Shown in pieces: positions 629 through 31,855 of a DNA stretch of 42,393 bases. Below the pieces are notes generated by a model. The model worked only from the letters and a program-made list of their open reading frames with translations, had not been told where the DNA came from and made no database searches. Both the position numbers and the translations under genes were made by a program. Numbering within the stretch: position 1 is the first letter of the stretch; each line of letters begins with the position of its first letter. Origin of the DNA: a virus; the IMG/VR virus record IMGVR_UViG_3300038418_000209, positions 1 to 42,393 of that record. One strand, given 5' to 3'.

Positions 629-642
629 GTGCAGTCCTGCAC
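629..642 (-). repeat. Palindromic intergenic repeat, copy 1
   Basis: Perfect GTGCAG-NN-CTGCAC. Read on the minus strand it follows the TAA of the 649-951 gene by 7 nt and precedes the Shine-Dalgarno and ATG of the DUF3560 gene. Confidence 0.9.
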
Positions 643-648
643 TAACTC

Positions 649-951
649 TTATGCGTAAAGGTCAATTTGCTTCGCCGACCCTTGGGCCTCGCCGCTTGCT
701 CGCTTGTAAGCCTCTACCATTTCATGGCCGACGGCTGCGGCGCGCTTCGGAAATCGCCGCTCGTCGCTGCGACTCCAGCACGAAACCTTACGCCATACGC
801 CATCAAAGACTTCGATCAAGATCCGGTAGCATGGTTCGCCGTTGCCAGGGAATAGAAATACCTGCACGCGGAACTGGCCAACGCGCCGCTCTTCGATAAT
901 CGCGGCTGGCTGTACGGCCATCGTTCGGTAGCCTCTAACGTATTCAAACAT
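649..951 (-). CDS. Hypothetical protein, 100 aa
   Basis: Not recognised. The product is basic (many Arg/Lys), with a likely beta-rich central part (VGQFRVQVFLFPGNGEPCYR) and no signal peptide or transmembrane segment. The ATG at 951 lies six bases after the stop of the upstream zinc-finger gene, and its AGAGG Shine-Dalgarno sits inside that gene's end, so the two are probably translationally coupled. Palindrome copy 1 follows 7 nt after the TAA. Membership of the leftward operon is clear from spacing; the function is not. Confidence 0.65.
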   Translation of the reverse strand: MFEYVRGYRTMAVQPAAIIEERRVGQFRVQVFLFPGNGEPCYRILIEVFDGVWRKVSCWSRSDERRFPKRAAAVGHEMVEAYKRASGEAQGSAKQIDLYA

Positions 952-957
952 AGTCGC

Positions 958-1209
958 TTACCTCTGAGGCTCAAGCCTCGTCGCCGCTTGCCCTTCGTCG
1001 CTTCTAGCGCTGAACAATGACAAGGACTGAAACATATGCTCATTCTTCCAACGTTTAGCCCATACGTTCAACGCTTGGCCGGGCAGGTTCCGATAACAAA
1101 ACCCGCAGAGACCAAAATGATAATCAGGCCCCAATTCCCCAATCCCACACCGCGCGCACTTCCCCATTCCTTCATTGCTCGCGCTCTTCGGTGTCTTAAT
1201 CTTCGCCAT
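958..1209 (-). CDS. Small zinc-finger protein, 83 aa
   Basis: Residues 18-40 contain CARCG then CGFCYR, a CxxC...CxxC spacing typical of a treble-clef or zinc-ribbon knuckle. The N-terminus is basic (MAKIKTPKSASNEGMGK). An AAAGGA Shine-Dalgarno lies three bases before the ATG. It is the first gene downstream of the strong leftward promoter at 1316-1343 and therefore probably heads an early transcript. Small zinc proteins of this kind in phages often act as DNA- or RNA-binding or host-takeover factors, but nothing here identifies a target. Confidence 0.7.
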   Translation of the reverse strand: MAKIKTPKSASNEGMGKCARCGIGELGPDYHFGLCGFCYRNLPGQALNVWAKRWKNEHMFQSLSLFSARSDEGQAATRLEPQR

Positions 1210-1315
1210 ATGTCCTTTATTCTAAAGGAGAATCGACGGGCTTAGATGTCTCCGCCCAGTCCGCTCTGCATATTTGAGATTCGGGATTGCTCCAGCAAGC
1301 CGGTTCATGGGTTCC

Positions 1316-1343
1316 AGTATAAGCGGCTTATGGCATTTGTCAA
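1316..1343 (-). promoter_or_regulatory. Strong sigma70-like promoter, leftward
   Basis: On the minus strand TTGACA (1338-1343), a 16-base spacer and TATACT (1316-1321), preceded by TTCCC. It lies about 110 bp upstream of the 958-1209 gene. The TTCCCTTGACA core is shared with the rightward promoter at 3904. Confidence 0.75.
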
Positions 1344-1389
1344 GGGAAATCCTTAGGTGGTGGTAAGGTGTTGTTTCTCAGACGCTTGC

Positions 1390-1417
1390 GGTGTAAGTCT
1401 GTTAGCGTGTTTGTCAA
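1390..1417 (-). promoter_or_regulatory. Possible second leftward promoter
   Basis: On the minus strand a perfect TTGACA (1412-1417) is followed after 16 bases by TACACC (1390-1395), or after 15 by TTACAC. The -10 is weak. It may be a tandem start upstream of the 1316-1343 promoter. The remainder of the 1210-1547 gap holds nothing else that I can identify. Confidence 0.35.
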
Positions 1418-1530
1418 ACCCTCTTTAACATCAGTTTTGGTGTATTTGAGGCTTTGCGGGGGGCTTTTGAGCCTTGCGAGTGATCGCGGCTTGGTTTCCT
1501 AGTGGAATCCGCTTGACGGGGCTGCGTCAT

Positions 1531-1559
1531 TGTGACACCATTATGACATGAGAATGACA
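1531..1559 (+). promoter_or_regulatory. Three TGACA heptads at 11-bp spacing (candidate operator)
   Basis: TGTGACA (1531), TATGACA (1542) and AATGACA (1553) are direct repeats with exactly 11-bp periodicity. They span the start codons (1548 or 1554) of the ribbon-helix-helix gene. RHH repressors commonly bind short tandem half-sites about one helical turn apart and autoregulate; binding here is inference. Confidence 0.45.
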
Positions 1560-1853
1560 CTGAGAATACCAGAAGAGATTTACAATGGCTTGGTTGAGCG
1601 GGCGAAGGTAGACCGGCGGTCGGTCAACGCTCAGGTGGTCCACGTCGTGGCGCTCTACCTAAAAGCTAAGGGAGAACCGACGGAGAAGCCCTCGCTGATG
1701 GCACCGCAGCGCGCGGAACCGGCGCCAGCGGCGAATCCAGTCGGCGGGTCCTGGCTGCAGGATCTCGGTCGACTGCGCCAGTTCCGGGAAATGCGGAATC
1801 GGGACCCTAACTCCGAAGCGGAATGGGAAACCTTCAAGCGCAAGGGATATTGA
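1548..1853 (+). CDS. Arc-like ribbon-helix-helix DNA-binding protein
   Basis: Residues 1-40 (MRMTLRIPEEIYNGLVERAK, then RRSVNAQVVHVVALYLKA) match the Arc/CopG ribbon-helix-helix pattern: a short strand, an amphipathic helix, the R-S-x-N-A-Q turn and a second helix. RHH dimers bind DNA with the paired strands. The C-terminal 60 residues are Pro/Ala-rich and then charged. No clear Shine-Dalgarno precedes the ATG at 1548; an alternative ATG lies at 1554. It is the only rightward gene inside the leftward block and is separated from the converging 1899-2108 gene by a GC hairpin. It is a candidate regulator of the divergent leftward promoters and of its own start region, where TGACA heptads are found. 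Confidence 0.75.
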   Translation: MRMTLRIPEEIYNGLVERAKVDRRSVNAQVVHVVALYLKAKGEPTEKPSLMAPQRAEPAPAANPVGGSWLQDLGRLRQFREMRNRDPNSEAEWETFKRKGY

Positions 1854-1861
1854 AGGTGGGG

Positions 1862-1887
1862 CGGGCGCCGATGGTTCACGGCGCCCG
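1862..1887. terminator. GC-rich hairpin between convergent genes
   Basis: Perfect 9-bp arms CGGGCGCCG and CGGCGCCCG around the 8-nt loop ATGGTTCA. It lies between the 3' ends of the rightward 1548-1853 and leftward 1899-2108 genes, so it may act in both directions. There is no U-tract, so it is not a classical intrinsic terminator. Confidence 0.45.
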
Positions 1888-1898
1888 GAGTCGGTGGG

Positions 1899-2108
1899 CT
1901 AAAGGCGGGGGATGGAATTGAAGTTGGCCTGAGCGAGCTTCGCTCGGCGGTCGTGCAGTAATTCGCGATCGCGCCAGCCATCATAGCGGCTGACCGTCTC
2001 GGGCTCGATTTGGTCGAGGCAGGTGGCGCAGACGAGCTCGGCGCGCCGGGTCCAGTAGAGACCAGAGCAAGGGTTATTGCAGCGGGGGCAGGTAACGGGG
2101 TCAGCCAC
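1899..2108 (-). CDS. Small zinc-ribbon protein, 69 aa, GTG start
   Basis: The N-terminal half contains CPRCNNPC and then CATCLDQ, two Cys knuckles about 20 residues apart; the rest is charged and helical (GWRDRELLHDRRAKLAQAN). The GTG at 2108 is chosen because an AAAGGGGG Shine-Dalgarno stands just upstream and palindrome copy 2 lies immediately before that. The start overlaps the 3' end of the HTH gene (stop at 2101). The function is unknown. Confidence 0.65.
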   Translation of the reverse strand: MADPVTCPRCNNPCSGLYWTRRAELVCATCLDQIEPETVSRYDGWRDRELLHDRRAKLAQANFNSIPRL

Positions 2109-2421
2109 GGCGCGCCCCCTTTCCCGTCGTGCAGTCCTGCACTACGGAATCCCCGAAGCGAAGGAAGGTGAAGCGGCAGGCGGGGCAGGATTTGATGTGC
2201 TCCAAGGTTAGAGGCGTCTTGGTGAAGGCGAAGCTTGGGGACTTCGGGCAGGGTTTCATGTCTGCGGCCTCTTCGAGGAGGAGTATACGGCTGGCATGGC
2301 GGCAATCAGGTCCATTGGCACCGGTCTCCCATCGGGACCAAGTTGTGACGGAGATACCGAGTAGGTTCGCCGCGGCCGCCTGGGTGAGCTTGAGTTTACC
2401 GCGAAGGGTTTTCAGGTCCAT
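2101..2421 (-). CDS. XRE-type helix-turn-helix protein, 106 aa
   Basis: Residues 1-50 (MDLKTLRGKLKLTQAAAANL, LGISVTTWSRWETG) are a clear lambda-repressor/XRE helix-turn-helix: LTQAAAANLLGIS is helices 2-3 and TTWSRWETG follows. The second half carries CPAC and CPKS Cys pairs that could bind zinc. The ATG at 2421 has an AAAGGAG Shine-Dalgarno. The reading frame runs through palindrome copy 2 and ends over the start of the next gene. It is the best transcription-factor candidate near the repeat network, alongside the RHH protein at 1548; which repressor, if any, binds the palindrome cannot be read from sequence. Confidence 0.75.
   Translation of the reverse strand: MDLKTLRGKLKLTQAAAANLLGISVTTWSRWETGANGPDCRHASRILLLEEAADMKPCPKSPSFAFTKTPLTLEHIKSCPACRFTFLRFGDSVVQDCTTGKGARRG
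2129..2142 (-). repeat. Palindromic intergenic repeat, copy 2
   Basis: Perfect GTGCAG-NN-CTGCAC. It lies just upstream of the GTG start of the 1899-2108 gene and inside the last codons of the HTH gene. Confidence 0.9.
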
Positions 2422-2602
2422 CGGTTGTGACTCCTTTCGTCGGCCAGATGGCCAGCGCCGCGAAGGTCAGGCCAGCGGCTATAATAAGGTTAACCGTCGC
2501 GTCGCCGTGGAGGTGCCGCGCCGCGCAGTCGCCCGCGACGCCAGAAGCGACCAGCGCCGAGAGGAAATTAAGGCAAGAGACAATCTGTCGGGTTCGGTGC
2601 AT
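2396..2602 (-). CDS. Small membrane protein, 68 aa
   Basis: Contains two hydrophobic stretches, around residues 8-25 (IVSCLNFLSALVASGVAG) and 37-53 (VNLIIAAGLTFAALAIW), which fits a two-pass inner-membrane protein with a short polar tail. The start at 2602 has AAGGAG four bases upstream. The 3' end overlaps the HTH gene start by 26 bp, and the gene directly follows the small lipoprotein gene. The pairing with a lipoprotein recalls lysis cassettes, but neither protein matches a known holin or spanin. Confidence 0.6.
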   Translation of the reverse strand: MHRTRQIVSCLNFLSALVASGVAGDCAARHLHGDATVNLIIAAGLTFAALAIWPTKGVTTDGPENPSR

Positions 2603-2610
2603 GGGGCTCC

Positions 2611-2739
2611 TTATGGCTTCCCGTGGATCGGTGGCCGGCGGGCCGGGAAAGATTGGGTAGACGTCGGCTGCGGTGGCTGTGGGCAGGCGGTCAACGCAAG
2701 AATGGAAAGCAAGAGAACTGCTAGGGTGATTCGCTTCAT
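2611..2739 (-). CDS. Small proline-rich lipoprotein, 42 aa
   Basis: MKRITLAVLLLSILALTAC is a canonical lipoprotein signal peptide with lipobox LTAC (Cys19). The mature part is about 24 residues, with Pro-rich PQPPQPTSTQ. The ATG at 2739 is supported by GGGAGG nine bases upstream; a longer reading from 2856 lacks a signal and is disfavoured. Size, proline content and lipobox resemble an Rz1-type outer-membrane spanin, but no Rz-like partner with a coiled coil is adjacent, so the assignment is open. Confidence 0.6.
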   Translation of the reverse strand: MKRITLAVLLLSILALTACPQPPQPTSTQSFPARRPPIHGKP

Positions 2740-2800
2740 AGCTGATAACCTCCCACGGGCGCCAAGCGGAGCCGGACGCCCGCGGCGGGCGATCAGCATT

Positions 2801-3031
2801 CTAGTGCCGGAGATGTATATAGCTGTCGCCGGCGTTGATTTCCCGGCAGTCTCCACCGCGGCCCGCGAATGCTAGTGCCACGAGCGCCCTAAAACAGTTT
2901 TCCTCCTCAGTTTCGCAGCCGCGTGGCCCGTCATACGTCCACGTGGTACCGTCAGGCCCAGTTGCCAAGAATACTGCTGGATACGGCGGTCGTGATAAGC
3001 GGATGAGCGTGTTGGTTATGTTGATTGTCAT
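2801..3031 (-). CDS. Hypothetical protein, 76 aa
   Basis: Not recognised. The start at 3031 is set by a GAGGAGG Shine-Dalgarno and by palindrome copy 3 about 30 bp upstream. The sequence has a beta-like N-terminal half (AVFLATGPDGTTWTYDG) and an acidic middle (ETEEENCFRALVALAF). It is probably soluble and is part of the leftward block. Confidence 0.6.
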   Translation of the reverse strand: MTINITNTLIRLSRPPYPAVFLATGPDGTTWTYDGPRGCETEEENCFRALVALAFAGRGGDCREINAGDSYIHLRH

Positions 3032-3062
3032 AAATCCTCCTCGTCGCGCTTCCCTGCGCGCG

Positions 3063-3076
3063 GTGCAGTCCTGCAC
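3063..3076 (-). repeat. Palindromic intergenic repeat, copy 3
   Basis: Perfect GTGCAG-NN-CTGCAC. On the minus strand the TAG stop of the 3076-3228 gene shares its final G with the first base of the repeat. Confidence 0.9.
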
Positions 3077-3228: not shown

Positions 3229-3291
3229 CTTCGTTACCCCTCTCGGCACAGCGCCGGGTCGGCGGTCTCGCCAGCATGCCAGCGACCGGTG

Positions 3292-3456: not shown

Positions 3457-3487
3457 CATCCTTCCCTCCTCGTCGTCTCCAGTCTCC

Positions 3488-3852: not shown

Positions 3853-3903
3853 GTCAAAGAAAAGGAAGGAAATAAAAAGCGGGCAAAAACCAGGAGAATT
3901 CCC

Positions 3904-3931: not shown

Positions 3932-3937
3932 AGGTTT

Positions 3938-6626: not shown

Positions 6627-6838
6627 GTGAAGTTGGCGAGTACACAATCACTCGGGACGGCGACCGCTACGGGTCGCTCGGGTCGGACTTCCCCGACGTG
6701 CTGACCGTCGTCGGGACGCGCGAGCAGGCGCTACGCTTGGCGAACTACCTGTCGAATTACTATGTGGGGTGCGACCTTCTGTTCCGCGTCGAAGGCACGA
6801 CGGAGGGCGAGTACTATGCGGAGGACGTGCAGATATGA
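6623..6838 (+). CDS. Hypothetical protein, 71 aa
   Basis: The start ATG overlaps the methyltransferase stop (ATGA) and has CAGGAG upstream, so it is translationally coupled. The sequence begins MSEVGEYTITRDGDRYGSLG and is acidic, with no transmembrane segment; it is not recognised. Its own stop overlaps the start of the next gene (ATGA). Confidence 0.65.
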   Translation: MSEVGEYTITRDGDRYGSLGSDFPDVLTVVGTREQALRLANYLSNYYVGCDLLFRVEGTTEGEYYAEDVQI

Positions 6839-7185
6839 AATTGAAGGCGCGCGACATCGTTCCGGGTTGGCCGCGAGGACGATCAACGGAGAATTTTCGG
6901 GGCGAATCTCCGGGAGCGAATCGGCGGTACCACGCCAAGCAGGCGGCGATGGTCGAGAAGTTTAGGTGCCGAGAACTCACCGTCCTCTATCCGCTGGACG
7001 GTCTACGCTGGTACCGTGGCTCGTTCTGGGGGCTGCGCTGCGGGCTCTGTGGAGCCGAGTGGAAGGACGGCAATGCGCCAACCTGCGCTTGCCCACCACA
7101 TACCGTCATCGGCTTTGGGTACGACGCCGTGCTGAAAACGTGGAGGGGTGTCCTCCGGTCGGAAGCAGCGAACTTCAATTTCTAG
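6835..7185 (+). CDS. Hypothetical Cys-rich protein, 116 aa
   Basis: The start at 6835 overlaps the previous stop (ATGA); a longer reading from 6769 is out of keeping with that coupling. The N-terminus is basic (MKLKARDIVPGWPRGRST). The middle has CGLCGAEW...CACP, a possible zinc site. The TAG stop shares its last G with palindrome copy 4. The function is unknown. Confidence 0.6.
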   Translation: MKLKARDIVPGWPRGRSTENFRGESPGANRRYHAKQAAMVEKFRCRELTVLYPLDGLRWYRGSFWGLRCGLCGAEWKDGNAPTCACPPHTVIGFGYDAVLKTWRGVLRSEAANFNF

Positions 7186-7198
7186 TGCAGGTCTGCAC
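7185..7198 (+). repeat. Palindromic intergenic repeat, copy 4
   Basis: Perfect GTGCAG-NN-CTGCAC starting on the final G of a TAG stop. The next gene's GAGG Shine-Dalgarno follows within a few bases. Confidence 0.9.
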
Positions 7199-7479: not shown

Positions 7480-7615
7480 GCAAGGCAAGCTGGGGTAGAT
7501 GTGTAGTTCAGCCGCGTTAGAACACCGTATGCGCACCTTAAATGGTGGGAAGACGGAGGTCGCTGGTTCGAGTCCAGTCGCATCTACCCTGGAAAGATTA
7601 AAGCAAGGCAAGCTG
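7480..7615 (+). repeat. 13-bp direct repeats flanking the tRNA-like gene
   Basis: GCAAGGCAAGCTG occurs at 7480-7492 and again at 7603-7615, bracketing the tRNA-like sequence symmetrically. It may mark a former insertion or recombination unit. Confidence 0.6.
7497..7586 (+). tRNA. tRNA-like gene with enlarged anticodon arm; isotype not assignable
   Basis: A 7-bp acceptor stem pairs AGATGTG (7497-7503) with CGCATCT (7579-7585), including one G-U pair, with discriminator A. Then come T8, a D-stem GTTC/GAAC and a T-arm GCTGG-TTCGAGT-CCAGT with canonical TTCGA. Between the outer anticodon-stem pairs CCGT (7525-7528) and ACGG (7553-7556) there are 24 nt instead of about 9. The extra segment forms its own small hairpin, CACC-TTAAAT-GGTG. 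CCA is not encoded (CCC follows). It could be an atypical tRNA, one carrying a roughly 15-nt intervening piece, or a decayed tRNA. Confidence 0.6.
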
Positions 7616-7858: not shown

Positions 7859-7860
7859 GA

Positions 7861-9754: not shown

Positions 9755-9763
9755 GAGATCCTC

Positions 9764-9964
9764 ATGAGTGAGTTTGAGAAGTGGTGTCAAGAGAAGTTCG
9801 GACACACTCCTTACCGCTATACCACGTCTGACGGAGAGGTTTTTTATGGGTACCCCTGGCAAGACAAGTGGGAAGGCTGGAATGCCGCGCTTGTCATTGC
9901 AGAGACCCTCGCAGAGTGTCAACGCGACCTTATTCACCGTCTGCGTGAGGAGGAAAAGAGATGA
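9764..9964 (+). CDS. Hypothetical protein, 66 aa
   Basis: MSEFEKWCQEKFGHTPYRYT, then a helical end (WEGWNAALVIAETLAECQRD). The WxGWNAAL pattern also occurs in small phage proteins of unknown role. The ATG follows a GGAG-type Shine-Dalgarno and the stop overlaps the next ATG. Confidence 0.55.
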   Translation: MSEFEKWCQEKFGHTPYRYTTSDGEVFYGYPWQDKWEGWNAALVIAETLAECQRDLIHRLREEEKR

Positions 9965-10470: not shown

Positions 10471-10484
10471 GTGCAGGACTGCAC
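10471..10484 (+). repeat. Palindromic intergenic repeat, copy 5
   Basis: Perfect GTGCAG-NN-CTGCAC extended to CAGTGCA/TGCACTG. It lies 15 bp before the ATG of the 10500 gene, with GGGAGG between. Confidence 0.9.
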
Positions 10485-11362: not shown

Positions 11363-11868
11363 TCGAACCCAAAAAGATTCTTCTCAGCCAACGCACAAGG
11401 GATTCGGCGACCGTCATCGAGGCGGGGTCGTTGAACAACCCGTTCATCGGAAGAATCCAAGTGCTTTGCACCGGCCCGCAGGCTTTCGCCGAGATCCTGA
11501 ATTACCTCGTCCACGCCGACCTTGCCATCGGTGCCGTGCAGCACGCAATCTCCTGCCTGCAGATGGCTCGGCGCCCCGAGGACCGCATCGACGACATGCG
11601 AATGCTCCAAGATGCCCACCACACGCTGACCGGCTGGCACTTCGATTCGGCATCCACGCCAGCGCCCTTGAGGGGGATTCGTCCATCGGCTGGCAGCATT
11701 AGTTGGGAAAAGGCAAAAGAAGTTATGGGCCAAATCGATCCTGCGAAGGTGCAAGAGATGTTTGGAGGCAACCCTTTAAGATTGGGCTCGGCGCATCCAG
11801 ATGAGGAACTCAAGATTGACAAAATGCTCCCTGAGAGCGTACCTTCCGAAGGAGAGAAAACCTCATGA
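11359..11868 (+). CDS. Hypothetical protein, 169 aa
   Basis: Coupled to the deformylase by ATGA overlap. The middle is helical (AEILNYLVHADLAIGAVQHA); the C-terminus is polar and charged with a Pro/Gly-rich linker. There is no transmembrane segment and no family is recognised. Its stop overlaps the next gene's start. Confidence 0.6.
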   Translation: MIEPKKILLSQRTRDSATVIEAGSLNNPFIGRIQVLCTGPQAFAEILNYLVHADLAIGAVQHAISCLQMARRPEDRIDDMRMLQDAHHTLTGWHFDSASTPAPLRGIRPSAGSISWEKAKEVMGQIDPAKVQEMFGGNPLRLGSAHPDEELKIDKMLPESVPSEGEKTS

Positions 11869-12344
11869 GTCCCGTTTACCCCATCCTTATCGCAGTAGTC
11901 GTAATCCTCTGCACGCTGGTTCTTGTCGCTCTGTTTTGCGTCGGAGGTCTTCTACTTTGGCAGGTCTGGGCGCTCGTCAAAATCAACCGCATCATCTCGG
12001 AGTCCGTCGCGGCCCTTGTCGATCCGGTGAAGCAACTGCCGGCGGCCACAGCCAACCTCATCAAGGTCTCGACGGAACTCAAGGAATTCCAAGAGGGTGA
12101 AGTCAGGCTCATGCGGCAACACATCAAGGCGGTGACGGACCTTACGGGGACCGTCGAAGAGTTTGAAGGGATGCTCGTGCGTCCGCCTTCTGCCGGAAGT
12201 CCGACACCAAGGGTTCGTCGCAGCGCGTCCGTCGCTCCCGCCACCGAGGGGGACGAAATGGAAATGGAGCAACGGCGAAAAGAATCCACAACGCTTGGGG
12301 GAGTTGACGTAAAGGATTTTGGGAAGAATGTTGGGACGGTTTAG
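11865..12344 (+). CDS. Membrane-anchored protein, 159 aa
   Basis: Residues 5-37 are strongly hydrophobic (ILIAVVVILCTLVLVALFCV and on), a single N-terminal membrane anchor. A helical cytoplasmic or periplasmic part follows (ALVDPVKQLPAATANLIKVS), then a charged tail. The TAG stop flows into palindrome copy 6. The role is unknown; the layout recalls small phage membrane proteins with a coiled-coil stalk. Confidence 0.6.
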   Translation: MSPVYPILIAVVVILCTLVLVALFCVGGLLLWQVWALVKINRIISESVAALVDPVKQLPAATANLIKVSTELKEFQEGEVRLMRQHIKAVTDLTGTVEEFEGMLVRPPSAGSPTPRVRRSASVAPATEGDEMEMEQRRKESTTLGGVDVKDFGKNVGTV

Positions 12345-12357
12345 TGCAGGACTGCAC
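12344..12357 (+). repeat. Palindromic intergenic repeat, copy 6
   Basis: Perfect GTGCAG-NN-CTGCAC beginning on the last G of a TAG stop. It is followed by an unusually long leader (57 nt) before the TTG start at 12415. Confidence 0.9.
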
Positions 12358-13494: not shown

Positions 13495-14085
13495 ATGAAA
13501 AACCTGATTTTAGGACTATTGTTTGGATTGCTTTTCTCGCTGGTCGGCTTCGGGCAGGAAGCCTACGTGGTTTCACTCAAGCCAGACGACGCGATGAAGG
13601 CGAAGGCCACCTACGACAAGTTGCAGCAGGCCCAAAAGGATTGGGCCGATACCCAAAAGCACATCGCCCTCAAGTACCTCATCGTCGAGCCCACAGACCC
13701 CGAGGCATCGGATAAGCACTATGTGGGAGAAACGGACACTGGGATTAACATCTCTTCGTCAGGAACGCTGTCGAGCGGCAACCTCGCTTTGCGGTATATA
13801 ACAACGATAGGCGGAAATCAATCTGAACCCACGAAAGAGGAGATTGCCCAACAAACCAAAGAAGAGAAAGCCTACATCGAACGATTCAACCGCGAGAAGC
13901 GCCAACGCAAAGGATTCGATGGGAATTGCTCAAACTGCCTGCCGAAGTTCGAGTTTACCCACGACTTCAAGTTCATCGTGCCTTCGAAGCCAGAGGTAAA
14001 GGCGCCAGTCTCGCCGTTCTATCTTTCGCCGGCTGCGAAGACTTTGACGACCGACGATAGTGGTAGTGCAGGCCTGCCGTGGTGA
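13495..14085 (+). CDS. Secreted or membrane-anchored hypothetical protein, 196 aa
   Basis: MKNLILGLLFGLLFSLVGFG is a Sec-type signal sequence with a Lys near the start and a long hydrophobic core. The mature part is helical (AMKAKATYDKLQQAQKDWAD), has CSNC, and ends with a Ser/Gly stretch. The ATG at 13495 is preferred to the GTG at 13489 because of GAGGTG. Its last codons run through a decayed palindrome copy (14066-14079). It sits immediately before the terminase genes. Confidence 0.6.
   Translation: MKNLILGLLFGLLFSLVGFGQEAYVVSLKPDDAMKAKATYDKLQQAQKDWADTQKHIALKYLIVEPTDPEASDKHYVGETDTGINISSSGTLSSGNLALRYITTIGGNQSEPTKEEIAQQTKEEKAYIERFNREKRQRKGFDGNCSNCLPKFEFTHDFKFIVPSKPEVKAPVSPFYLSPAAKTLTTDDSGSAGLPW
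14066..14079 (+). repeat. Degenerate palindrome copy in a CDS end
   Basis: GTGCAG-GC-CTGCCG; the right arm has lost the final AC. It precedes the 14089 gene as the intact copies precede other genes. Confidence 0.45.
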
Positions 14086-14786: not shown

Positions 14787-17700
14787 ATGGCACTCGTACA
14801 GGTTTATCAAGAGTCTGACATAGCCACAGCGGTTGAGGAACTCAACCATCTTCGGGAACAGGTCCTCTACGAGGACAAGGATGCTGACCCGTGGGAAGCG
14901 CTGTCTTCGTCGGAGCTTGAGTGGATCGACGCCGAGATTGGGAAGTGCTGCGCCGACTTCCGGTACGCCGCATACAACTACTTCTGGTTGGGACACACCA
15001 AAGATTCAATTCCTTGCCTCTTCAATCTCTGGCCTGCACAGGAACTTTTCCTTTCCATCGTCGAGAATATGTGGGCAGAGGGAGAGCCTGCATGGATAAT
15101 AACGCATAAGGCACGGCAATTAGGAATCAGCACAGTTGTCGAGGCCATCCTCGCTTGGAAGAATCTTTTCTTTTCCAACCAGATTTCGATGATCATCGCG
15201 CAGGATCCCGACCAAGCTGAGCACCTTCTGAAAATCTCGCTCTACATCATGGACCACATGCCGTGGTGGATGCGGCCGATGGAGCAGTCGCGAGAATTCA
15301 AAGAGGCTATGATTCTTGAGAACAAGGACCCCTATGAGCGTTCCTTCAAGGCTGGGCTCAATAATTGGATCATCGCAAACGGCTGCACGAAGATTTCCGC
15401 ATTTGGTCAGGGGAAACCCATACATATTTTTCATGGCAGCGAATTAAGCAGTTGGCCTTCCGACCGCGCCCGAAAGATCATTTCTCAGGACATGAAGTAC
15501 GCCTTCGCGAAGAAGCCAGGGTGCCTCGCCGCGATGGAGTCGAAGCCTCGCGGCATGGTGGGCTACTGGTACAATATGTGGCACGTCTTCGACGGCCAGG
15601 GGTTGAGCGCAGAGTACTTCCCCTTCTATGTGCCAGCGTTCTTCGAAAAGGACCGGCGCCTCGACCCGCCGCCAGCATGGGAGCCCGACGAAGAGGCTAT
15701 CGCCATTCGTGAGAACTACTCCCTGGAATGGACACAGTGTGACGAATGCGGAACTCCGCTGCCGATGCGCTGGGGGGAAATCGAGTCGTGTGTGAAGTGT
15801 GGATCGCCGAATCATTCGCCGATCCTGCTCGACGACGCTCAACTCTACTGGTATCAGGAAGAAAAGAAGACCGCCGCCGCGCAGGGGAAGCAGGAACTTC
15901 GCGACTTCTACCAGGAAATGAGTATCACGCCGGAACAGGGGTTTCAAGCATCGGGCATCATCGTCTTCCCCGACGAAGTGATGGCCTACCTCCAACGGAC
16001 TTGTCATCCGGGTCAGAAGGGCTACTTCGATGATGCCTTCAACTGGCATGCCGAGCGGAACTGCAAAATCTGCCACGACGACCACTTGGGGGAAGACTAC
16101 CCAATGGAAATGTGGGAGCCTCCGCAAGAAGGGGCGAGGTATGTAGCGGGCGTCGATGTCGCCGAGGGAGAAGAGGAAGGGGATTACTCAGTAATACACG
16201 TTATCAAGATGGGATATGGCTTCAAGATTCCCGACAAGCAAGTGTTTGAGTGGTACGGGCACATCGACGGTCACGAGTTCGCCCGCGTCTGCTACCTCGT
16301 CGGGAAGGCGTACAACGAAGCGATGATGGCGATTGACGCCATCGGGCCTGGGTACGGAACGCTCGGCCTGCTCCTTCATCAATTCAATTACGGCAACATC
16401 TATCGGTGGAAGCATCTCGACAGCTTCACGAAAATTCAGAGCAATAAGGCTGGGCTGTGGACGAATTACAAGACGCGGCGAACGATGATTACTTGGGGGA
16501 TTCGCTGGCTGCGCCGACAGATTTGGGAGATCCGGTCAACGCACTTCCTCGAGGAAGCTCCGTTCTTTCAGAAGGACGACGATGACGCCAAGGCAGAGGC
16601 ACTTGAAGGGCACTTCGACGACTGCGTTCCAGAGGGAACGCTTGTAACTACCTCGACAGGTCAAAAACCGATAGAAGAAGTACGAGCCGGAGAACTCGTC
16701 CTAACCCATAAGGGGAGATTTATGCCTGTCACCCACACAGGCTCCCGCTTTGAGGACAAGAAACTCATCGAAGTTATGGCCTATGGAAGACCACCGCTTC
16801 TCGTTACAGCCGAACACAAACTCTGGCTTTCGCAAAAGGAATTCATCTATTACGAAAAGGGGAAAACCTGCGAGTACCAACCGAAAAAAAAGAGATGGAA
16901 TCGCCATACCAGGGGAAGGCAAACGAAGAAGGTAGTCTATTCTGATCCGAACTGGGTTTCGTGGGAGTCGTCGCAGTTGAATTTGAAAGGTAAGTATGCG
17001 ACCTGTTCTGTCGCCGCAACTGCAGAAATTGAAACTGAGAGAGTTGACCTTTTCAAAGGGTTGCCAGAGAGCTATCGCATAGTCGACGGAGTGTTGACAG
17101 CTTTTGCTAAAGGGACGATGCGGGAAATACCAACGCAGCATAAGATGAAGAGGTTCGTTCCTGTTGACAAGAATTTTCTCAGAATGATTGGCTATTATTT
17201 GGCCGAAGGCGCACGGGGACTCAGTAGCATTGCCTTTGCATCGCATCGAAGGGAGTTTCCAATCCGAAACTGGCTGATTGGCTATATTAAGAGCCTCGGA
17301 GCACACGCTGGAGAGTCTAAAACCTCAGCAAACGGTTCAGAAGTTTGGTGTAGTTCGATCCCATTGAACTATTTTTTTAGAGAATTTCGGAAAAGAGAAG
17401 GGAAGCGTTTGCCCTCTTGGGTGACGCTTCTTCCCCCAGAAAAGCAAAAAGAGGTGATTGTCGGATACCTCTTGGGAGATGGCTGTTTTCGTAGAGAATC
17501 AGGCGCTATCCAATCTGCTACGATTAGCCCAGAGGCAGCCTTCCAGATTTTCAATATGGCCATGCGCTGTGGTTGGGCTTGCTCACTCATTGGCTACTCG
17601 GGACAGAATGGTCACAAAAAGCAATGGAAGATTAACTTTTCGTCGTGGACTTCCAAAGAGATAAAGTCTCTCATTGAGCCAGAAATACTAGCCTGCAAAA

Positions 17701-18194
17701 GACCACTAAGCCCGTTAAGAAGGATTTCAACGGACGTTATTAAATTGGTAGATGGTAGAATGTTTGGGACAATCTACAGTACAAAAGAAATCCCGTTTTG
17801 TGGAACCGTCTACAATCTCAACGTTGAGGAAGACCATAGTTTCGTTGCCAACGGAACTGTAATTTCGAACAGCATTATGGCCGGCCTCTGTGCGAATTAT
17901 GCTGCACATGAGGATGACCGCGACCCGATGACGGGCCGGTTCAACCTGCCGGCGGGAATCACGCGAAGTCGCGAGGGCGGAAACTATATCGCCACATGCG
18001 TCAAAGGTCACAAGTTTGACACTGACGACCCAAGCCAGGGCGGTCACGCAAGGTGCCCGAAGTGCAACTCATTGATTCAGGGAGCAGAGAAAAAGCCGCA
18101 GAGTGGAACGCTCGAAGCGGAGCGGCTGATAGCGATGGTTACTGGTCCCAAGGCGGAGAAAGGATTTAACATTCCCCCTTTCGACCAATTATGA
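14787..18194 (+). CDS. terL: Terminase large subunit with intein
   Basis: ORF of 1135 codons: about 719 of extein and a 416-residue intein. The ATPase domain has KARQLGIST (residues 108-116, Walker-A-like) and IHIFHGSELSSW (Walker B, Glu219). The RNase H-like nuclease domain has GVDVAEG (Asp457) and AIDAIGPG (Asp517), and the third acidic motif is FDD-S, restored only after splicing. Cys pairs at CDECG...CVKCG and CVKGHKF...CPKC suggest zinc sites. The enzyme cuts concatemers and pumps DNA through the portal at 20261. The intein splits the nuclease active site, so the unspliced precursor should be inactive. Confidence 0.93.
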   Translation: MALVQVYQESDIATAVEELNHLREQVLYEDKDADPWEALSSSELEWIDAEIGKCCADFRYAAYNYFWLGHTKDSIPCLFNLWPAQELFLSIVENMWAEGEPAWIITHKARQLGISTVVEAILAWKNLFFSNQISMIIAQDPDQAEHLLKISLYIMDHMPWWMRPMEQSREFKEAMILENKDPYERSFKAGLNNWIIANGCTKISAFGQGKPIHIFHGSELSSWPSDRARKIISQDMKYAFAKKPGCLAAMESKPRGMVGYWYNMWHVFDGQGLSAEYFPFYVPAFFEKDRRLDPPPAWEPDEEAIAIRENYSLEWTQCDECGTPLPMRWGEIESCVKCGSPNHSPILLDDAQLYWYQEEKKTAAAQGKQELRDFYQEMSITPEQGFQASGIIVFPDEVMAYLQRTCHPGQKGYFDDAFNWHAERNCKICHDDHLGEDYPMEMWEPPQEGARYVAGVDVAEGEEEGDYSVIHVIKMGYGFKIPDKQVFEWYGHIDGHEFARVCYLVGKAYNEAMMAIDAIGPGYGTLGLLLHQFNYGNIYRWKHLDSFTKIQSNKAGLWTNYKTRRTMITWGIRWLRRQIWEIRSTHFLEEAPFFQKDDDDAKAEALEGHFDDCVPEGTLVTTSTGQKPIEEVRAGELVLTHKGRFMPVTHTGSRFEDKKLIEVMAYGRPPLLVTAEHKLWLSQKEFIYYEKGKTCEYQPKKKRWNRHTRGRQTKKVVYSDPNWVSWESSQLNLKGKYATCSVAATAEIETERVDLFKGLPESYRIVDGVLTAFAKGTMREIPTQHKMKRFVPVDKNFLRMIGYYLAEGARGLSSIAFASHRREFPIRNWLIGYIKSLGAHAGESKTSANGSEVWCSSIPLNYFFREFRKREGKRLPSWVTLLPPEKQKEVIVGYLLGDGCFRRESGAIQSATISPEAAFQIFNMAMRCGWACSLIGYSGQNGHKKQWKINFSSWTSKEIKSLIEPEILACKRPLSPLRRISTDVIKLVDGRMFGTIYSTKEIPFCGTVYNLNVEEDHSFVANGTVISNSIMAGLCANYAAHEDDRDPMTGRFNLPAGITRSREGGNYIATCVKGHKFDTDDPSQGGHARCPKCNSLIQGAEKKPQSGTLEAERLIAMVTGPKAEKGFNIPPFDQL
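16623..17870 (+). other. LAGLIDADG intein in terminase
   Basis: Residues 613-1028. It starts with Cys (CVPEGTLVTTSTGQ, block A). LLVTAEHKLWLS is block B, with its TxxH histidine. MIGYYLAEG (about 800) and IVGYLLGDG (about 890) are the two LAGLIDADG endonuclease motifs. VYNLNVEEDHSFVANG and the ending VISN precede Ser+1. The penultimate residue is Ser instead of the usual His, a known but less common variant. Predicted to self-splice and to home. Confidence 0.92.
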
Positions 18195-18226: not shown

Positions 18227-18844
18227 ATGGAGCAAGAAACCTACCAGACAATCGAAGTCGAGGTTCCCCGGTCACAACTGATTATCCTGCGCAAGCTCTT
18301 CAACGGCGCGGCGGTGAAGGACGCCATCCAGAAGTGCGTTGAAACCTTCACAGCGGGTTGGCAGGCTGGGATTGAACTCACAACGGAAGGCATTACGGCG
18401 ATCAGCAATCTGCTGAACGTGCGGAGTTTCAACTCTGAGGCATCGCTCATCGAGGCGATTCAGAAGCGGTTCAACATGGGGCCAATGACCGCCATCATCG
18501 AACTCGACGGAAACCTCGCTGCGGCCATCAAGCGAGTGGCGGCGGGGAACAATATCACGGTCAACGCATGTCTGAGGAATTACGTCCAGGCGGCGTTCGC
18601 GTCGGGGTACTTCAATCAGCGCATGAACCTGCAATCCCTCTTCTTCAGTCCGAAAGAGTGGGAGACTCTCAAAAAGGCACTTGGCGAGGTTCCCTCGACG
18701 GGCGGGAATGTAGCAAGCATCGTTGCTGAGTGGAAGGCGCTAAAAGCTCTTCCTGTTCCGCCGGTGCAGGGCTGCATTGGAGAACCAGAAGCAGTCCCGG
18801 ATCCCGATGCTGTAGATCCATTGGGGGATATTCCGAGATTCTGA
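18227..18844 (+). CDS. Hypothetical protein, 205 aa
   Basis: Follows terL after a short gap with a GACGAGGAGG Shine-Dalgarno. It is helical with repeated amphipathic segments (AAIKRVAAGNNITVNACLRN, YVQAAFASGYF) and a Pro-rich acidic end. A degenerate palindrome (18764-18777) lies inside the 3' coding region. It is not recognised; by location it could be a packaging accessory protein. Confidence 0.6.
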   Translation: MEQETYQTIEVEVPRSQLIILRKLFNGAAVKDAIQKCVETFTAGWQAGIELTTEGITAISNLLNVRSFNSEASLIEAIQKRFNMGPMTAIIELDGNLAAAIKRVAAGNNITVNACLRNYVQAAFASGYFNQRMNLQSLFFSPKEWETLKKALGEVPSTGGNVASIVAEWKALKALPVPPVQGCIGEPEAVPDPDAVDPLGDIPRF

Positions 18845-19128: not shown

Positions 19129-19140
19129 GTGGGGCGACAG

Positions 19141-19626
19141 ATGCCAGTTTGGGACCTAATTTGCAAAGACTGTGGGTACGAGAGGGATGATAAGTTCTTC
19201 GCGACGATAGCCCTTTCGGAAGTTCCACAGCGTTGTCCAGATTGTCGTGGGATTCTCGATAAGAAAACTCCAACCGTTTGCTTCCAGCCGTTCAAGCCGT
19301 TTTTTACCCGGAATATTCGCAAGGACGGTTCCGAAGTATACGTTCGTGACCGCGCGCAACTTCGCCAACTGATGCGCGAAGAGCACCTTGTCTTCCACCC
19401 CTACAACGATTCTCCAGAGTCCAAGATGGACCCACGGGAGAAGCAGGCCGCCGAGGCTGAGGCGAGGAAGCGATTCCCGGCCCGGTACAAGAAGCTCAAA
19501 GAAGATGTGGCGGTGCTCACGAAGGAAAAGACTGAGCAAGTCGCCGTGAAGGCGCCGAATTTTGGGTTGGGACCCGATGGGAGAAGGGTTCCAACGCTTC
19601 AAGAAAGGCTACAGAAGCAGGCGTAG
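19141..19626 (+). CDS. FmdB-like zinc-ribbon protein, 161 aa
   Basis: MPVWDLICKDCGYERD with CPDCRG about 25 residues later is the FmdB-type regulatory zinc ribbon layout. Charged helices follow, ending in VPTLQERLQKQA. The ATG at 19141 is preferred over the GTG at 19129. The TAG stop overlaps palindrome copy 7. Such proteins are frequent beside portal genes in phages, but their function is not established. Confidence 0.65.
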   Translation: MPVWDLICKDCGYERDDKFFATIALSEVPQRCPDCRGILDKKTPTVCFQPFKPFFTRNIRKDGSEVYVRDRAQLRQLMREEHLVFHPYNDSPESKMDPREKQAAEAEARKRFPARYKKLKEDVAVLTKEKTEQVAVKAPNFGLGPDGRRVPTLQERLQKQA

Positions 19627-19639
19627 TGCAGGCCTGCAC
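19626..19639 (+). repeat. Palindromic intergenic repeat, copy 7
   Basis: Perfect GTGCAG-NN-CTGCAC starting on the last G of a TAG stop. From 19624 to 19656 the leader is identical but for one base to the leader of the DUF3560 gene on the other strand (644 down to 612). Confidence 0.9.
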
Positions 19640-20240: not shown

Positions 20241-20260
20241 GTTTGCACTGAGGAACAATC

Positions 20261-22448: not shown

Positions 22449-22479
22449 GCGGGTTGAGAAGATCGGCAAAATTTTGTTC

Positions 22480-22509
22480 TTGACAAAGGGTCTGTTCCGA
22501 GAGTAGGGT
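22480..22509 (+). promoter_or_regulatory. Possible promoter ahead of terminator
   Basis: Perfect TTGACA at 22480-22485; the -10 is poor (TAGGGT at 22504-22509, 18-base spacer). It lies 50 bp before an intrinsic terminator, so it would make an RNA of only about 85 nt, or it supports readthrough into the capsid genes. Confidence 0.3.
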
Positions 22510-22557
22510 TCAGTCTGGATTAAGCGGGGGTCTTTCGTCACCTCTTGAGTCGACGAG

Positions 22558-22600
22558 AAGGCGCTCAAAGCTGAAAAGGCTTTGGGCGCCTTTTCTTTTT
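22558..22600 (+). terminator. Intrinsic terminator after the portal block
   Basis: AAGGCGC...CAAAGC pairs with GGCTTTG...GCGCCTT (stem 22558-22571 / 22578-22592) and is followed by TTTTCTTTTT. A strong rho-independent terminator separating packaging genes from head genes. Confidence 0.8.
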
Positions 22601-23220: not shown

Positions 23221-23234
23221 GTGCAGTCCTGCAC
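23221..23234 (+). repeat. Palindromic intergenic repeat, copy 8
   Basis: Perfect GTGCAG-NN-CTGCAC, immediately followed by GAGGAG and the ATG at 23248. Confidence 0.9.
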
Positions 23235-25904: not shown

Positions 25905-25930
25905 GCCGCAGTGCAGGGCTGCACTGCGGC
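25905..25930 (+). repeat. Palindromic repeat copy 9, extended to 12-bp arms
   Basis: The core GTGCAG-NN-CTGCAC (25911-25924) is extended to GCCGCAGTGCAG-GG-CTGCACTGCGGC, the longest perfect palindrome of the family. It lies between the capsid gene and the next gene. Confidence 0.9.
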
Positions 25931-25954
25931 AGTAAGTTTGACGGAGGGACTAAA

Positions 25955-26557
25955 ATGTCCACCAAGTACTTCGGGTCGCTGATTATGGCGACGCCCGTTT
26001 TCAACACCGGTGGGGGGGATTTCACCCTCGTCGATGATGCGACGCAGAAGAATTACCCGCTGGGCGGGATCTACGTCTTCCCGGATGCTTCGGGTCGGCC
26101 ACGGGCCATCACCTATGCGCAATGGAATCCGACAGTCGCAGCGACTTACGTCCAAGGCGGTCCAGTCTATTACAAGGATGGGGCGCGCAGCGTCATCACC
26201 AACGAGGTTACTGAGGCCGCGACGTACCTCGTGAACACTTGTTCCGCGCTATTCTCGTTTGCCGGGATTATTTTGAATCCAACCGTTCCGACGACCGGCG
26301 ACTTCGTGTTCATCCAGTCGCAGGGGTTCTGCGACAAGATCAAGATGCCGGCGGCAACCACGGCTGGTGACATCCTGGTCCTGACGAACGCAGTTGGGAC
26401 GGCACCCACGGACAACGTGTGGACCAGACTTGGCGGGGCCACCGACCTGACATTGCTCAAGGCATTGTTCGCGGTTATTTATGTGACTACCGCCGTCGTC
26501 GGTGGTGGGGCAGGGCTGGGGAGTGGCTGGATTGAAGGTCCTCTGGGCCTGATTTAA
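25955..26557 (+). CDS. Capsid-associated protein A (decoration/head-fibre candidate)
   Basis: 200 residues from the ATG at 25955 (ACGGAGG Shine-Dalgarno). Contains GDFTLVDDATQKNYPLGGIY, ALFSFAGI and a Gly-rich end GLGSGWIEGPLGLI. It is clearly paralogous to the next gene, with roughly half of positions identical by eye. Beta-rich, without signal or membrane segment. Position right after the coat gene suggests a decoration or head-fibre role; no family is recognised. Confidence 0.6.
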   Translation: MSTKYFGSLIMATPVFNTGGGDFTLVDDATQKNYPLGGIYVFPDASGRPRAITYAQWNPTVAATYVQGGPVYYKDGARSVITNEVTEAATYLVNTCSALFSFAGIILNPTVPTTGDFVFIQSQGFCDKIKMPAATTAGDILVLTNAVGTAPTDNVWTRLGGATDLTLLKALFAVIYVTTAVVGGGAGLGSGWIEGPLGLI

Positions 26558-26576
26558 GCTCGATGGAGGGATCGAA

Positions 26577-27179
26577 ATGAGTACCAAAACTTACGGAAGC
26601 CTGATCATGCAGACCCCGGTTCTGAACACGGGTCAGGGCGACTTCACTCTGGTTGACGACGCGAAGCAGAAAAACTTCCCGTTGGGGGGCATCTACATCT
26701 ACGCGGATTCCTCCGGGCGGCCGAGAATCATCAAGTACGTCGAGTGGAACCCCAGCACCACACCAGCTTATTACCAAGGGGCTCCGGTGTACTACACCGA
26801 TCAGACACGGACTATCGTCAGCCCCATCGTCGCCGACGCGGCGACCTACTTGGTGGCTTCCTGCTCGACACTGTTCTCGTTCGCGGGAATCACTATGGGA
26901 GCGACGATCCCGGCGGCGGCGGGAGATTTCATCTTCATCCAGTCTGGCGGTTTCTCCGACAAGATCTTGATGCCAGCAAGCACCGTGGCGGGGGACATAC
27001 TGGTTCTGTCGAATGTGGCTGCGAATCTTCCGACGATCAACGTGTTCATCAGGGTCGCAGCGGGAACCGACCTGGGGATCGTAAAGGCTGCGTTTGCATG
27101 CGTGTTCGTCACCACCATCGCCGCCGTCGGCGGTGGATTGGGAAGCGGCTGGATTCAGAGTCCCTTGATGCCGATTTAA
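26577..27179 (+). CDS. Capsid-associated protein B (paralogue of A)
   Basis: 200 residues, the same length and architecture as its neighbour: MSTKTYGSLIMQTPVLNTGQ, GDFTLVDDAKQKNFPLGGIY, FSFAGI and GLGSGWIQSPLMPI. Arose by tandem duplication of the 25955 gene or vice versa. A terminator follows. Together they probably make a two-component capsid surface layer; this is inference. Confidence 0.6.
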   Translation: MSTKTYGSLIMQTPVLNTGQGDFTLVDDAKQKNFPLGGIYIYADSSGRPRIIKYVEWNPSTTPAYYQGAPVYYTDQTRTIVSPIVADAATYLVASCSTLFSFAGITMGATIPAAAGDFIFIQSGGFSDKILMPASTVAGDILVLSNVAANLPTINVFIRVAAGTDLGIVKAAFACVFVTTIAAVGGGLGSGWIQSPLMPI

Positions 27180-29412: not shown

Positions 29413-29438
29413 GGCAATTTCACCTCGGAGGTAAGATC

Positions 29439-31811
29439 ATGAAAAAGATTATCACGCTACTTGGATTGCTGTCAATCCTATTAGTTTCGTTTCCATCCAC
29501 TTCTCTCGCAGTTTCGTCTATTTCGGGCACAATTACCGACCCCGCAGGAGCAGCGTACGCAAACGGAACCTACGAATTTACCTTCATCGGTGGGCCGGGT
29601 GGGGTCAACATCGGGACTGGTGAAAGTGTTGCCCGGGTGGCTGGAGCGCTGAACGGCTCTGGTGCCTTCAGCGGCGTGACGCTGGGCAATACCGACATCC
29701 TGGGTGGAGGGTCGCGCTGGCAGGTAAAGATTTGCGCTGTCAACGGCCAGTGTTTTACGACCCTCATCAATGTCACGGCCTCTACGTCGAGCCTTTCGAC
29801 GATCTTGCAGGCTGCGGCTCCGCTTCTGACGGGCGCTTCGATGAGCGGGACGGCGGCTGCCAACAGCACCTTCGCGTTTGCGAACTACACCAATGCGTGG
29901 ACTTGGGGCGCTGCGACGGGGGCCTCGACGAACCCGTTTACGCTGACCGACACGACACTCAACACTGGAACCGGCTACCTCGAAAAGGTCATTACTACAG
30001 CCGGTTCGGCGCTGGGTGGATTCCAAGTGGTCTGCGGCAATCAGGCTAGTGCTGCGGCTCCAGCAAATGCTCCAGCTTGCGTTACTCTGACGGCTGGCAA
30101 TGGTGGAGTATCGACCGTAGCTGGAACCCCTGGTAGTAACGGTGGAACCATTACCAAAACCACGGGGACTGGCGGCGCGGGTGCCGCGACGGGCACCGGC
30201 GGAAACGGTGGTGAGGGCGACTTAATCACCGGAAACGGCGGCGCTGCGGCGGGCGTCGGGTCACTCGGCGGAAACGGTGGTCTGATTAAACTCTTGGGTG
30301 GCACTGGTGGTGGAACTGTCAACGGCGGAGTCGGTGGAGCGTTGACGATGACAGCTGGCCCTGGTGGAAACGGTTCGACCACAGGCGGGACTGGTGGAGC
30401 GTTGACCCTCGGGTCGGGCGCGGCTGGAACCGGCGGAACCGGAACGTCTGGGGCGGTTGCCCTCAAGTCAGGAGCAAGCACGGTTCTGGGCGTTACAGGC
30501 TTGGGCGCAATCACCATGGCTTCGCCGGGAACCAATCTGACGAACGAGTTCCTCTTCACTGGCACGGCACAGTCGGGCACTCCGGCGAACAGTGTGTTCA
30601 GCGTGGTCGATACTACTGGAAACACCACGACTGGTCCGCTGCTTGACGTTCATACCGTTGGGAATTCGACAGCGCTCCCTGTGCGAATCACCGCGCAAGG
30701 AAGCACTGTCGGCGTTCAAATGAGCGCGGCTGGTGTGCTCTCGCCGATCAGCACCGGTAAAATCGCTCCCCGGTGGAACGACGTAACGGCGGCTGGCGCT
30801 GCTCAGAGCATCGCCAACACGATTTACACCACGGCGATTTCTCATACGAATCCGGCGGGGGCGGCTGACGCCATCACCTTCAGCATGGGCACCGCAACTT
30901 CGACGAGCAACCTGCTGACGCTCTCCGACGGTGCGGCCAATACCGGAACTGGCTACCTCTTGAACCTGTCGCATGGTGCGGCCTCACTTGCCAACGACCT
31001 CAAGATTACCGCCGCAGCGCAGACTGGTTCGCCTTCGAATTCTCAGATTAACATTCTAGATACAACTTCCAATACGAACACCGGCCCGCTGGTCAACATC
31101 CACACGGCGGGCAGTTCGACGGCTCTCCCGATTCAAATAACGGCAGTGGGAACCGCCAACGGCGTCCAGATGACCGCCGCTGGCTTGCTCCAGAAAATGG
31201 GGAGTGGCAGCATCAAGGCCGACGCTTCAACCTCTCCGACGGATGGCTACTACTGGGTGCCGTTACAGGCTTGCGGTATGCAGTTGACGACCGGCGCTCT
31301 GGCTGCGGCCTCGACGGTTGGTCAAAACCCGGGCATCCAGTACGTGGCTGCAAACAACATGGTGCTCGGAGTTACAACTTCTGGTGCCGCAAGTGCGGTG
31401 ACAATCGACTGCGACATCTCGCCACCGAGCCGCACAACCTCGACAAAGGGAATCACCATCACCGGCGTCAGAATGTTCTACGGCTATCAAGGTGCCGCAA
31501 CTCCGAACAGCATTGCCGGTCCAACCTTCTCGCAGGTAGTTTATAGTGCCGCTGCTGGAGCGGCGGCAGCCACACTGACGACGGTTGGTGGGGCGCTTAC
31601 AACCACCGTTGGTACCAGCCATAGCACACCGGGTGCTGTGACCACGACTGGCCAGTGCTACTCGGAATTGACGACCTTCGGAACACCCTTCGTCGCGAAT
31701 AGCGACCTCACACGGTACACGGCAGAATTGGTCATCAACCATACGACCGCTTCTTTGGCAACGTATCAACTCTGCGGAGTGGCCGTGGACTATACTAACG
31801 GCGTTTTGTGA
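29439..31811 (+). CDS. Gly-rich fibre/adhesin-like protein with signal peptide, 790 aa
   Basis: MKKIITLLGLLSILLVSFPS with cleavage expected after TSLA is a textbook Sec signal. Residues 25-115 form a small beta domain (ISGTITDPAGAAYANGTYEF). About 210-345 is a GGX-rich stretch (GGNGG, GGTGG repeats) like the polyglycine-helix bundles of some phage adhesins. From 365 to 600 there are two copies of a unit containing NTTTGPLLDVHTVGNSTALP or NTNTGPLVNIHTAGSSTALP. The C-terminus has several Cys. Probably a receptor-binding or surface protein. A GGAGG Shine-Dalgarno fixes the start. Confidence 0.65.
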   Translation: MKKIITLLGLLSILLVSFPSTSLAVSSISGTITDPAGAAYANGTYEFTFIGGPGGVNIGTGESVARVAGALNGSGAFSGVTLGNTDILGGGSRWQVKICAVNGQCFTTLINVTASTSSLSTILQAAAPLLTGASMSGTAAANSTFAFANYTNAWTWGAATGASTNPFTLTDTTLNTGTGYLEKVITTAGSALGGFQVVCGNQASAAAPANAPACVTLTAGNGGVSTVAGTPGSNGGTITKTTGTGGAGAATGTGGNGGEGDLITGNGGAAAGVGSLGGNGGLIKLLGGTGGGTVNGGVGGALTMTAGPGGNGSTTGGTGGALTLGSGAAGTGGTGTSGAVALKSGASTVLGVTGLGAITMASPGTNLTNEFLFTGTAQSGTPANSVFSVVDTTGNTTTGPLLDVHTVGNSTALPVRITAQGSTVGVQMSAAGVLSPISTGKIAPRWNDVTAAGAAQSIANTIYTTAISHTNPAGAADAITFSMGTATSTSNLLTLSDGAANTGTGYLLNLSHGAASLANDLKITAAAQTGSPSNSQINILDTTSNTNTGPLVNIHTAGSSTALPIQITAVGTANGVQMTAAGLLQKMGSGSIKADASTSPTDGYYWVPLQACGMQLTTGALAAASTVGQNPGIQYVAANNMVLGVTTSGAASAVTIDCDISPPSRTTSTKGITITGVRMFYGYQGAATPNSIAGPTFSQVVYSAAAGAAAATLTTVGGALTTTVGTSHSTPGAVTTTGQCYSELTTFGTPFVANSDLTRYTAELVINHTTASLATYQLCGVAVDYTNGVL

Positions 31812-31841
31812 AACACACGACTACGGTGTGAAGCTGGTTTA

Positions 31842-31855
31842 GTGCAGTCCTGCAC
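31842..31855 (+). repeat. Palindromic intergenic repeat, copy 10
   Basis: Perfect GTGCAG-NN-CTGCAC directly followed by GGAGG and the ATG at 31867. Confidence 0.9.

Follow-up and report, generated by a model that had tools for sequence, protein, structure and literature searches.

Sets of short sites that are dispersed over a whole phage genome and tied to start codons are well described in mycobacteriophages and some of their relatives, with those of the start-associated type being without known function. The temperate cluster A phages have stoperators, asymmetric 13-mers to which a monomeric repressor of two domains binds (PMC6550527, PMC9283540, PMC5559632), and the repressor bound to a stoperator halts elongation (PMC6550527, PMC9283540). 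The start-associated sequences (SAS) and ESAS of cluster K phages comprise 11-19 near-identical short repeats located a few nucleotides upstream of starts; they at times overlap the upstream stop codon, and their site sets partly differ between relatives (PMC3203893, PMC12699233, PMC11373665). Among cyanobacteria, HIP1 is a contiguous 8-mer that commonly occurs at high frequency and is linked to methyltransferases (PMC4390886). Here, we characterized a palindrome, GTGCAG-NN-CTGCAC, that recurs throughout the genome of a peat-bog phage and provides a separate example of such a set, being a clean palindrome with a measured direction. Its copies inside genes separate a DNA-level need from start-codon control, and the set offers a compact test case for whether such sites act on elongation, on translation or on neither.

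The window, by which we mean the whole stretch of DNA analyzed, is a virus record of 42,393 bases (IMGVR_UViG_3300038418_000209) and is part of a phage with a larger genome. Ten other motif-bearing IMG/VR records were assigned to the same species, 7 of them by direct alignment or by tracing at ≥99.9% identity, and the remainder by copy spacing or by proteins that are 97-100% identical. Two records (69.6 and 55.8 kb) that overlap at both ends gave a map of 96,575 bases, circular or circularly permuted, which serves as a coordinate frame only (window position = map position - 10905, +3 beyond ~20 kb). Gene calling was home-made and may miss small genes; copy orientation and gene starts rest on these predicted genes. 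The phage encodes a terminase with an intein, a head protein (phrog_9953), DnaB, RecT, RusA, several methyltransferases (one of C5 type), HNH endonucleases, and a 3,022-aa protein at map 68620-77688 (IMGVR_UViG_3300038451_000187; L090:2876-11944), whose parts have profile matches to DarB-like antirestriction, portal-like, endolysin-like and helicase proteins. Among the home-made gene calls, no integrase, ParA/ParB, RNA polymerase or sigma factor was recognized, nor was a classical multi-domain repressor or a recombinase. The failure to recognize an integrase, a partition protein or a classical multi-domain repressor leaves a lysogeny setting unsupported. One tail-protein region is 35% identical to the Acidobacteriota phages Tunturi 1 and 2, and from this one weak protein match the host is possibly a member of the Acidobacteriota.

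Searches with the terminase, head protein, DnaB and tail protein yielded just one divergent relative, a single record of 31.1 kb with the same gene order, a head protein 79% identical and proteins elsewhere 28-65% identical. The head protein retrieved no prophages, and the phage record collection searched held no close match for the phage. Several features of the window were observed in passing. The gene for the terminase large subunit (14787-18194) contains an intein (Hint domain) that is missing in the relative, the gene of which carries ~1 kb extra at another point. Two adjoining genes for 200-aa proteins after the head protein (25952-27179) are paralogues, and the relative has one copy. 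A tRNA gene lies at 7497-7586 (Rfam RF00005). Upstream of the head genes, a TTGACA promoter-like sequence is followed within ~100 nt by a strong terminator hairpin (~22475-22595), a pair that is kept in the relative (L140/L141, ~9755-9870, reverse-complement orientation) and whose layout would be like that of an antiterminated late leader.

GTGCAG-NN-CTGCAC recurs far more often than any other word of this form, with 22 perfect copies in the 96.6 kb map, compared to 0.009 expected. One-mismatch copies are likewise in excess (7 vs. 0.37 expected), and two-mismatch copies show little excess (7 vs. 4.0 expected). Chance and base composition were ruled out as the origin of the copies by shuffles, k-mer counts and this expectation. 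The arms are invariant among perfect copies, and the centre and flanks vary; two copies in the window, at 19626 and 629, have a 17-bp downstream flank in common. No strain variation was seen in the sites in 75 observations, a count that is uninformative at 99.9% identity. All ten perfect copies that the initial annotation had listed for the window were recovered at the same positions (Table 1). Its imperfect copies fared less evenly: the one at 14066 is plausible because it has the same S-A-G-L frame as the in-gene copies described below and precedes the next ATG by 9 nt, the one at 18764 is perhaps due to chance, and the half-copy at 20243 falls within chance at its mismatch level.

Table 1. 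Palindrome copies and associated genes in the window
Feature	Position	Strand	Context
Perfect palindrome	629..642	-	Sense-strand centre GA; 25 nt upstream of the ATG of a DUF3560/methyltransferase gene
RHH-like protein, 101 aa	1548..1853	+	Identified by eye
Zinc-ribbon-like ORF, 69 aa	1899-2108	-	GTG start; downstream of copy 2129
Xre-type HTH protein, 106 aa	2101..2421	-	Sole HTH protein recognized; inferred candidate site reader
Perfect palindrome	2129..2142	-	In 3′ end of the HTH ORF; upstream of the GTG of the next gene
Perfect palindrome	3063..3076	-	Begins on G of a TAG stop; 31 nt upstream of ATG
Perfect palindrome	7185..7198	+	Begins on G of the TAG that ends ORF 6769-7185; ATG follows after 14 nt
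Perfect palindrome	10471..10484	+	15 nt upstream of ATG 10500
Perfect palindrome	12344..12357	+	Begins on G of the TAG that ends ORF 11865-12344; TTG 12415 follows after 57 nt
Probable decayed copy, 2 mismatches	14066..14079	+	S-A-G-L frame; upstream of ATG 14089
One-mismatch copy, doubtful member	18764..18777	+	Within a gene, in another frame; G at -1
Perfect palindrome	19626..19639	+	Begins on G of the TAG that ends ORF 19129-19626; ATG 19662 follows after 22 nt
Perfect palindrome	23221..23234	+	13 nt upstream of ATG; relative has GTGCAGTAAATGCAC at the same junction
Perfect palindrome, extended to a 12-bp inverted repeat	25911..25924	+	30 nt upstream of the gene after the major head protein
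Perfect palindrome	31842..31855	+	11 nt upstream of ATG 31867; relative has perfect GTGCAGTTCTGCAC at the same junction

Most copies are found where genes meet. Seventeen of the 22 perfect copies occupy gene junctions, that is, the ≤20% of the map that lies outside called genes or at gene ends (p ~9e-9). Sixteen of these precede a start codon by 8-57 nt, in most cases with a Shine-Dalgarno-like sequence in the gap, and the seventeenth (map 7638) has no evident gene downstream. The placement of copies upstream of a ribosome-binding site, as originally proposed, was borne out for 10 of 10 window copies, which stand 11-57 nt before a start with a Shine-Dalgarno-like sequence in the interval. Likewise, the TAG stop of the upstream gene supplies the first G of exactly four window copies, namely 3063 (minus strand), 7185, 12344 and 19626, and of nine perfect copies in the whole map. 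The copy at the 3′ end of the HTH gene had been set apart as the one copy that is not intergenic; it does lie within that gene, but it still precedes the start of the next gene and is not an exception, because this GTG start is 20 nt downstream. The structural region carries copies as well, both behind the gene for the major head protein and ahead of other genes. A terminator scan listed no intrinsic terminator (GC hairpin plus T run) at the ten window copies and strong ones elsewhere, no correctly oriented match to -35/-10 promoter hexamers was seen at the window copies, and an Rfam scan of the window returned the tRNA alone, with no RNA family at the copies. With no match at the copies in any of these scans, a terminator, a promoter and an Rfam family were rejected as their identity.

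The palindrome has a direction that is tied to transcription. On the sense strand, the base at -1 is A in all 22 copies (21/21 with unambiguous orientation, the strand of map 7638 being ambiguous), and the site therefore has a direction; the mirror position is T in just 9 of the 22 (Fisher p 2e-5). The centre begins with G in 16/22 copies, and the upstream flanks show little conservation beyond the constant A and a partial bias at -2. The rule of orientation holds on both strands and in short inverted gene blocks. At 8 of the 22 copies an RNA hairpin is unlikely in context (pair probability <0.15), and the sequence is still invariant.

Five perfect copies, all outside the window, are situated well inside genes: three in the gene for the 3,022-aa protein, one in that for a 326-aa protein and one in a helicase gene. 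They share a single frame, AGT-GCA-N-CTG-CAC, read as P/A-S-A-G/A-L-H, and fall in proline-rich linkers (4/5) or, in the helicase, in a loop that is longer than in homologues (alignment at ~25% identity). The S, A, L and H codons (AGT, GCA, CTG and CAC) are identical in all five, although the chance of those four codons is ~0.003 per copy given the phage's codon usage, and the full peptide is found nowhere with other codons. A protein motif S-A-G-L-H was accordingly rejected as the cause of the in-gene copies, and the identical codons point to constraint or origin at the DNA level. Moreover, with five copies inside genes, control of start codons cannot be the whole function. The alternative of translation control raised by the initial annotation thus keeps the association of most copies with starts in its favor, but the in-gene copies speak against its pure form.

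The relative also carries the motif family. Its record contains seven copies of GTGCA-N4/5-TGCAC vs. 0.4 expected: three perfect GTGCAGNNCTGCAC, one GTGCA-TTCC-TGCAC and three identical GTGCAGTAAATGCACAAA. The three identical copies agree over 18 nt, and one is in a linker where the present phage has none. Three of the seven are at gene starts; two share junctions with window copies 23221 and 31842, and a further junction copy, before a 790-aa gene, is specific to the relative, since the present phage has no motif there. Two copies lie in signal peptides, and protein constraint may partly explain them. It had been proposed that the idea of a site set would fail if the motif were missing from the equivalent junctions of close relatives and not replaced by variants. 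Among five comparable junctions, the motif is kept at one (31842), a variant with a 5-nt centre is found at one (23221), and no motif is present at the three that match 12344, 19626 and 25911, so that the outcome is divided. The overlap of junctions is not beyond independent placement (hypergeometric estimate, p ~0.14, with ~20 junctions assumed). On the broader claim, the existence of a genome-wide site set is supported by the rest of the genome and by this one divergent relative. Multiple copies of the motif were absent from every other virus and GTDB genome searched, and 41.7 kb of the Tunturi phages contained no comparable motif. A host-derived repeat was rejected, as GTDB genomes, and IMG/VR apart from this phage, have the extended motif in single copies spread among unrelated taxa.

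Regarding the protein that might read the site, Xre-type families match the HTH protein, as does, though weakly, the P22 C2 repressor family (E 0.009). The HTH protein is the first candidate because its own operon holds two copies of the palindrome. TGACA-type repeats surround the start of the RHH-like gene (window ~1520-1560), which suggests that they are probably a separate operator of that gene's own, and the RHH protein was set aside as the palindrome reader on account of them.

The reading that we favor, to which we give a nearly even chance of being correct, is that the palindromes are the scattered members of one family of sites, bound by a putative phage DNA-binding protein that is sequence-specific and probably a dimer. 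At the level of sequence, it is supported by the number, invariance, junction position and transcription orientation of the copies, by the DNA-level constraint in genes and by their presence in the relative. Arms that stay constant while the centre and flanks change usually indicate that a dimer reads the DNA, whereas in RNA hairpins it is usually the loop that is read, and stems covary. A protein occupying these sites could act on RNA polymerase as it crosses gene boundaries, by pausing, blocking or gating it, by analogy with stoperators; we propose such an action because the sites are directional, lie in transcribed DNA and lack promoter or terminator signatures. The in-gene copies would then be extra sites, tolerated where S-A-G-L-H is harmless to the protein. 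Several points count against an operator: the 5-nt centre in the relative, which, unlike a 4-nt centre, might not suit a rigid dimer; the failure to recognize an integrase, a partition protein or a classical repressor; and the number of junctions shared with the relative (2 of 5), which independent placement would also give. The main rival, which we regard as possible but rather unlikely, is an mRNA hairpin (GUGCA stem, 4-5 nt loop) between stop and Shine-Dalgarno that would serve as a translational operator, a 5′-end stabilizer or a processing mark. It would be in keeping with sites that lie between these two elements and are oriented with transcription in all clear cases, and with the 5-bp arms that the relative keeps around a 4- or 5-nt centre; the hairpin is well formed in about half of the contexts. 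In addition, all three one-mismatch copies at junctions carry a change that preserves G-U pairing in the sense RNA, which hints weakly at a role for RNA. However, RNA hairpins are usually recognized in the opposite way to what an invariant stem without compensatory change around a variable loop would imply, the eight copies noted above are unlikely to form the hairpin in their contexts, and the five copies deep in genes have no start codon to control. Arm invariance and hairpin-poor contexts, set against the G-U pairs and the longer centre, are what led us to these two estimates.

Two further explanations seem less probable, although each accounts for part of the data. A spreading palindromic micro-element, dispersed by duplication and surviving where harmless with little or no function, would fit in-gene copies that are confined to linkers or loops and always in one frame, a helicase copy within a stretch missing from homologues, the three 18-nt copies in the relative with one in a linker that has no counterpart here, the 17-bp flank common to copies 629 and 19626, and the lack of a site at three of the relative's five junctions. 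Yet the 22/22 orientation with transcription and the strict invariance of the arms are unexpected of a neutral insert, we see no known mechanism here for moving 14-15 bp, and strains show no variation at the sites (uninformative at 99.9% identity); a neutral element of this type is decidedly unlikely. It is somewhat easier to envisage, though still unlikely, that a micro-element was copied into junctions and fixed-frame disordered linkers and recruited as a transcription-oriented, genome-wide regulatory set, with sequence and spacing differing between relatives. A site for DNA maintenance (methylation, partition, packaging or a recombination boundary), with an orientation that merely follows gene direction, is very unlikely. 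The copies are dispersed and the phage encodes several methyltransferases, including the C5 type, as well as RecT and RusA, but no ParA/ParB or recombinase was recognized in the genome, and such sites would have no reason to track the gene strand even in short inverted segments.

How, then, does the palindrome set compare with the known systems? Like HIP1, it is a repeated palindrome that also occurs within genes; in contrast to HIP1, it is a spaced 14-mer, biased to junctions and directional. The KorB/KorA operators of plasmids are dispersed near-perfect palindromes with a variable centre that answer to one global repressor, and the present copies share this dispersal, near-perfect symmetry and variable centre. 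KorB is capable of long-range silencing (PMC11790492). No KorB/ParB or KorA homologue was found in the phage, however. To our knowledge, orientation with transcription is not a feature of KorB sites. The likeness to the stoperators of cluster A (L5-type) phages is closer: these are ~20-30 short conserved sites spread genome-wide, mostly in short intergenic spaces and oriented with transcription, and here there are 22 perfect and 7 one-mismatch copies, with the sense-strand A at -1 in 22/22 (one site being strand-ambiguous). The differences lie in the site and may extend to its reader. Stoperators have an asymmetric 13-bp consensus ending in GTCAAG, which the present copies lack; the site here is palindromic with one directional flanking base, and five copies are in genes. 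The stoperator immunity repressor has an HTH and a stoperator domain; the sole HTH protein recognized in the present phage is the 106-aa Xre-type one, and no integrase was recognized. As in cluster K, copies precede start codons, although the spacing (8-57 nt for 16/22) is looser than the 3-9 nt of SAS. The SAS itself is an asymmetric 13-mer with the consensus GGGATAGGAGCCC, which includes the Shine-Dalgarno; the sequence here is another one, and the Shine-Dalgarno is downstream of the palindrome. SAS are confined to the non-structural half of the genome, whereas structural genes carry the palindrome too, and ESAS holds SigA-like promoter hexamers, none of which were seen at the present copies. 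The resemblance to stoperators and SAS that was first suggested thus extends to layout and direction, but not to the defining sequence features of either system. Judged by its anatomy, the palindrome set appears to resemble both while being a member of neither.
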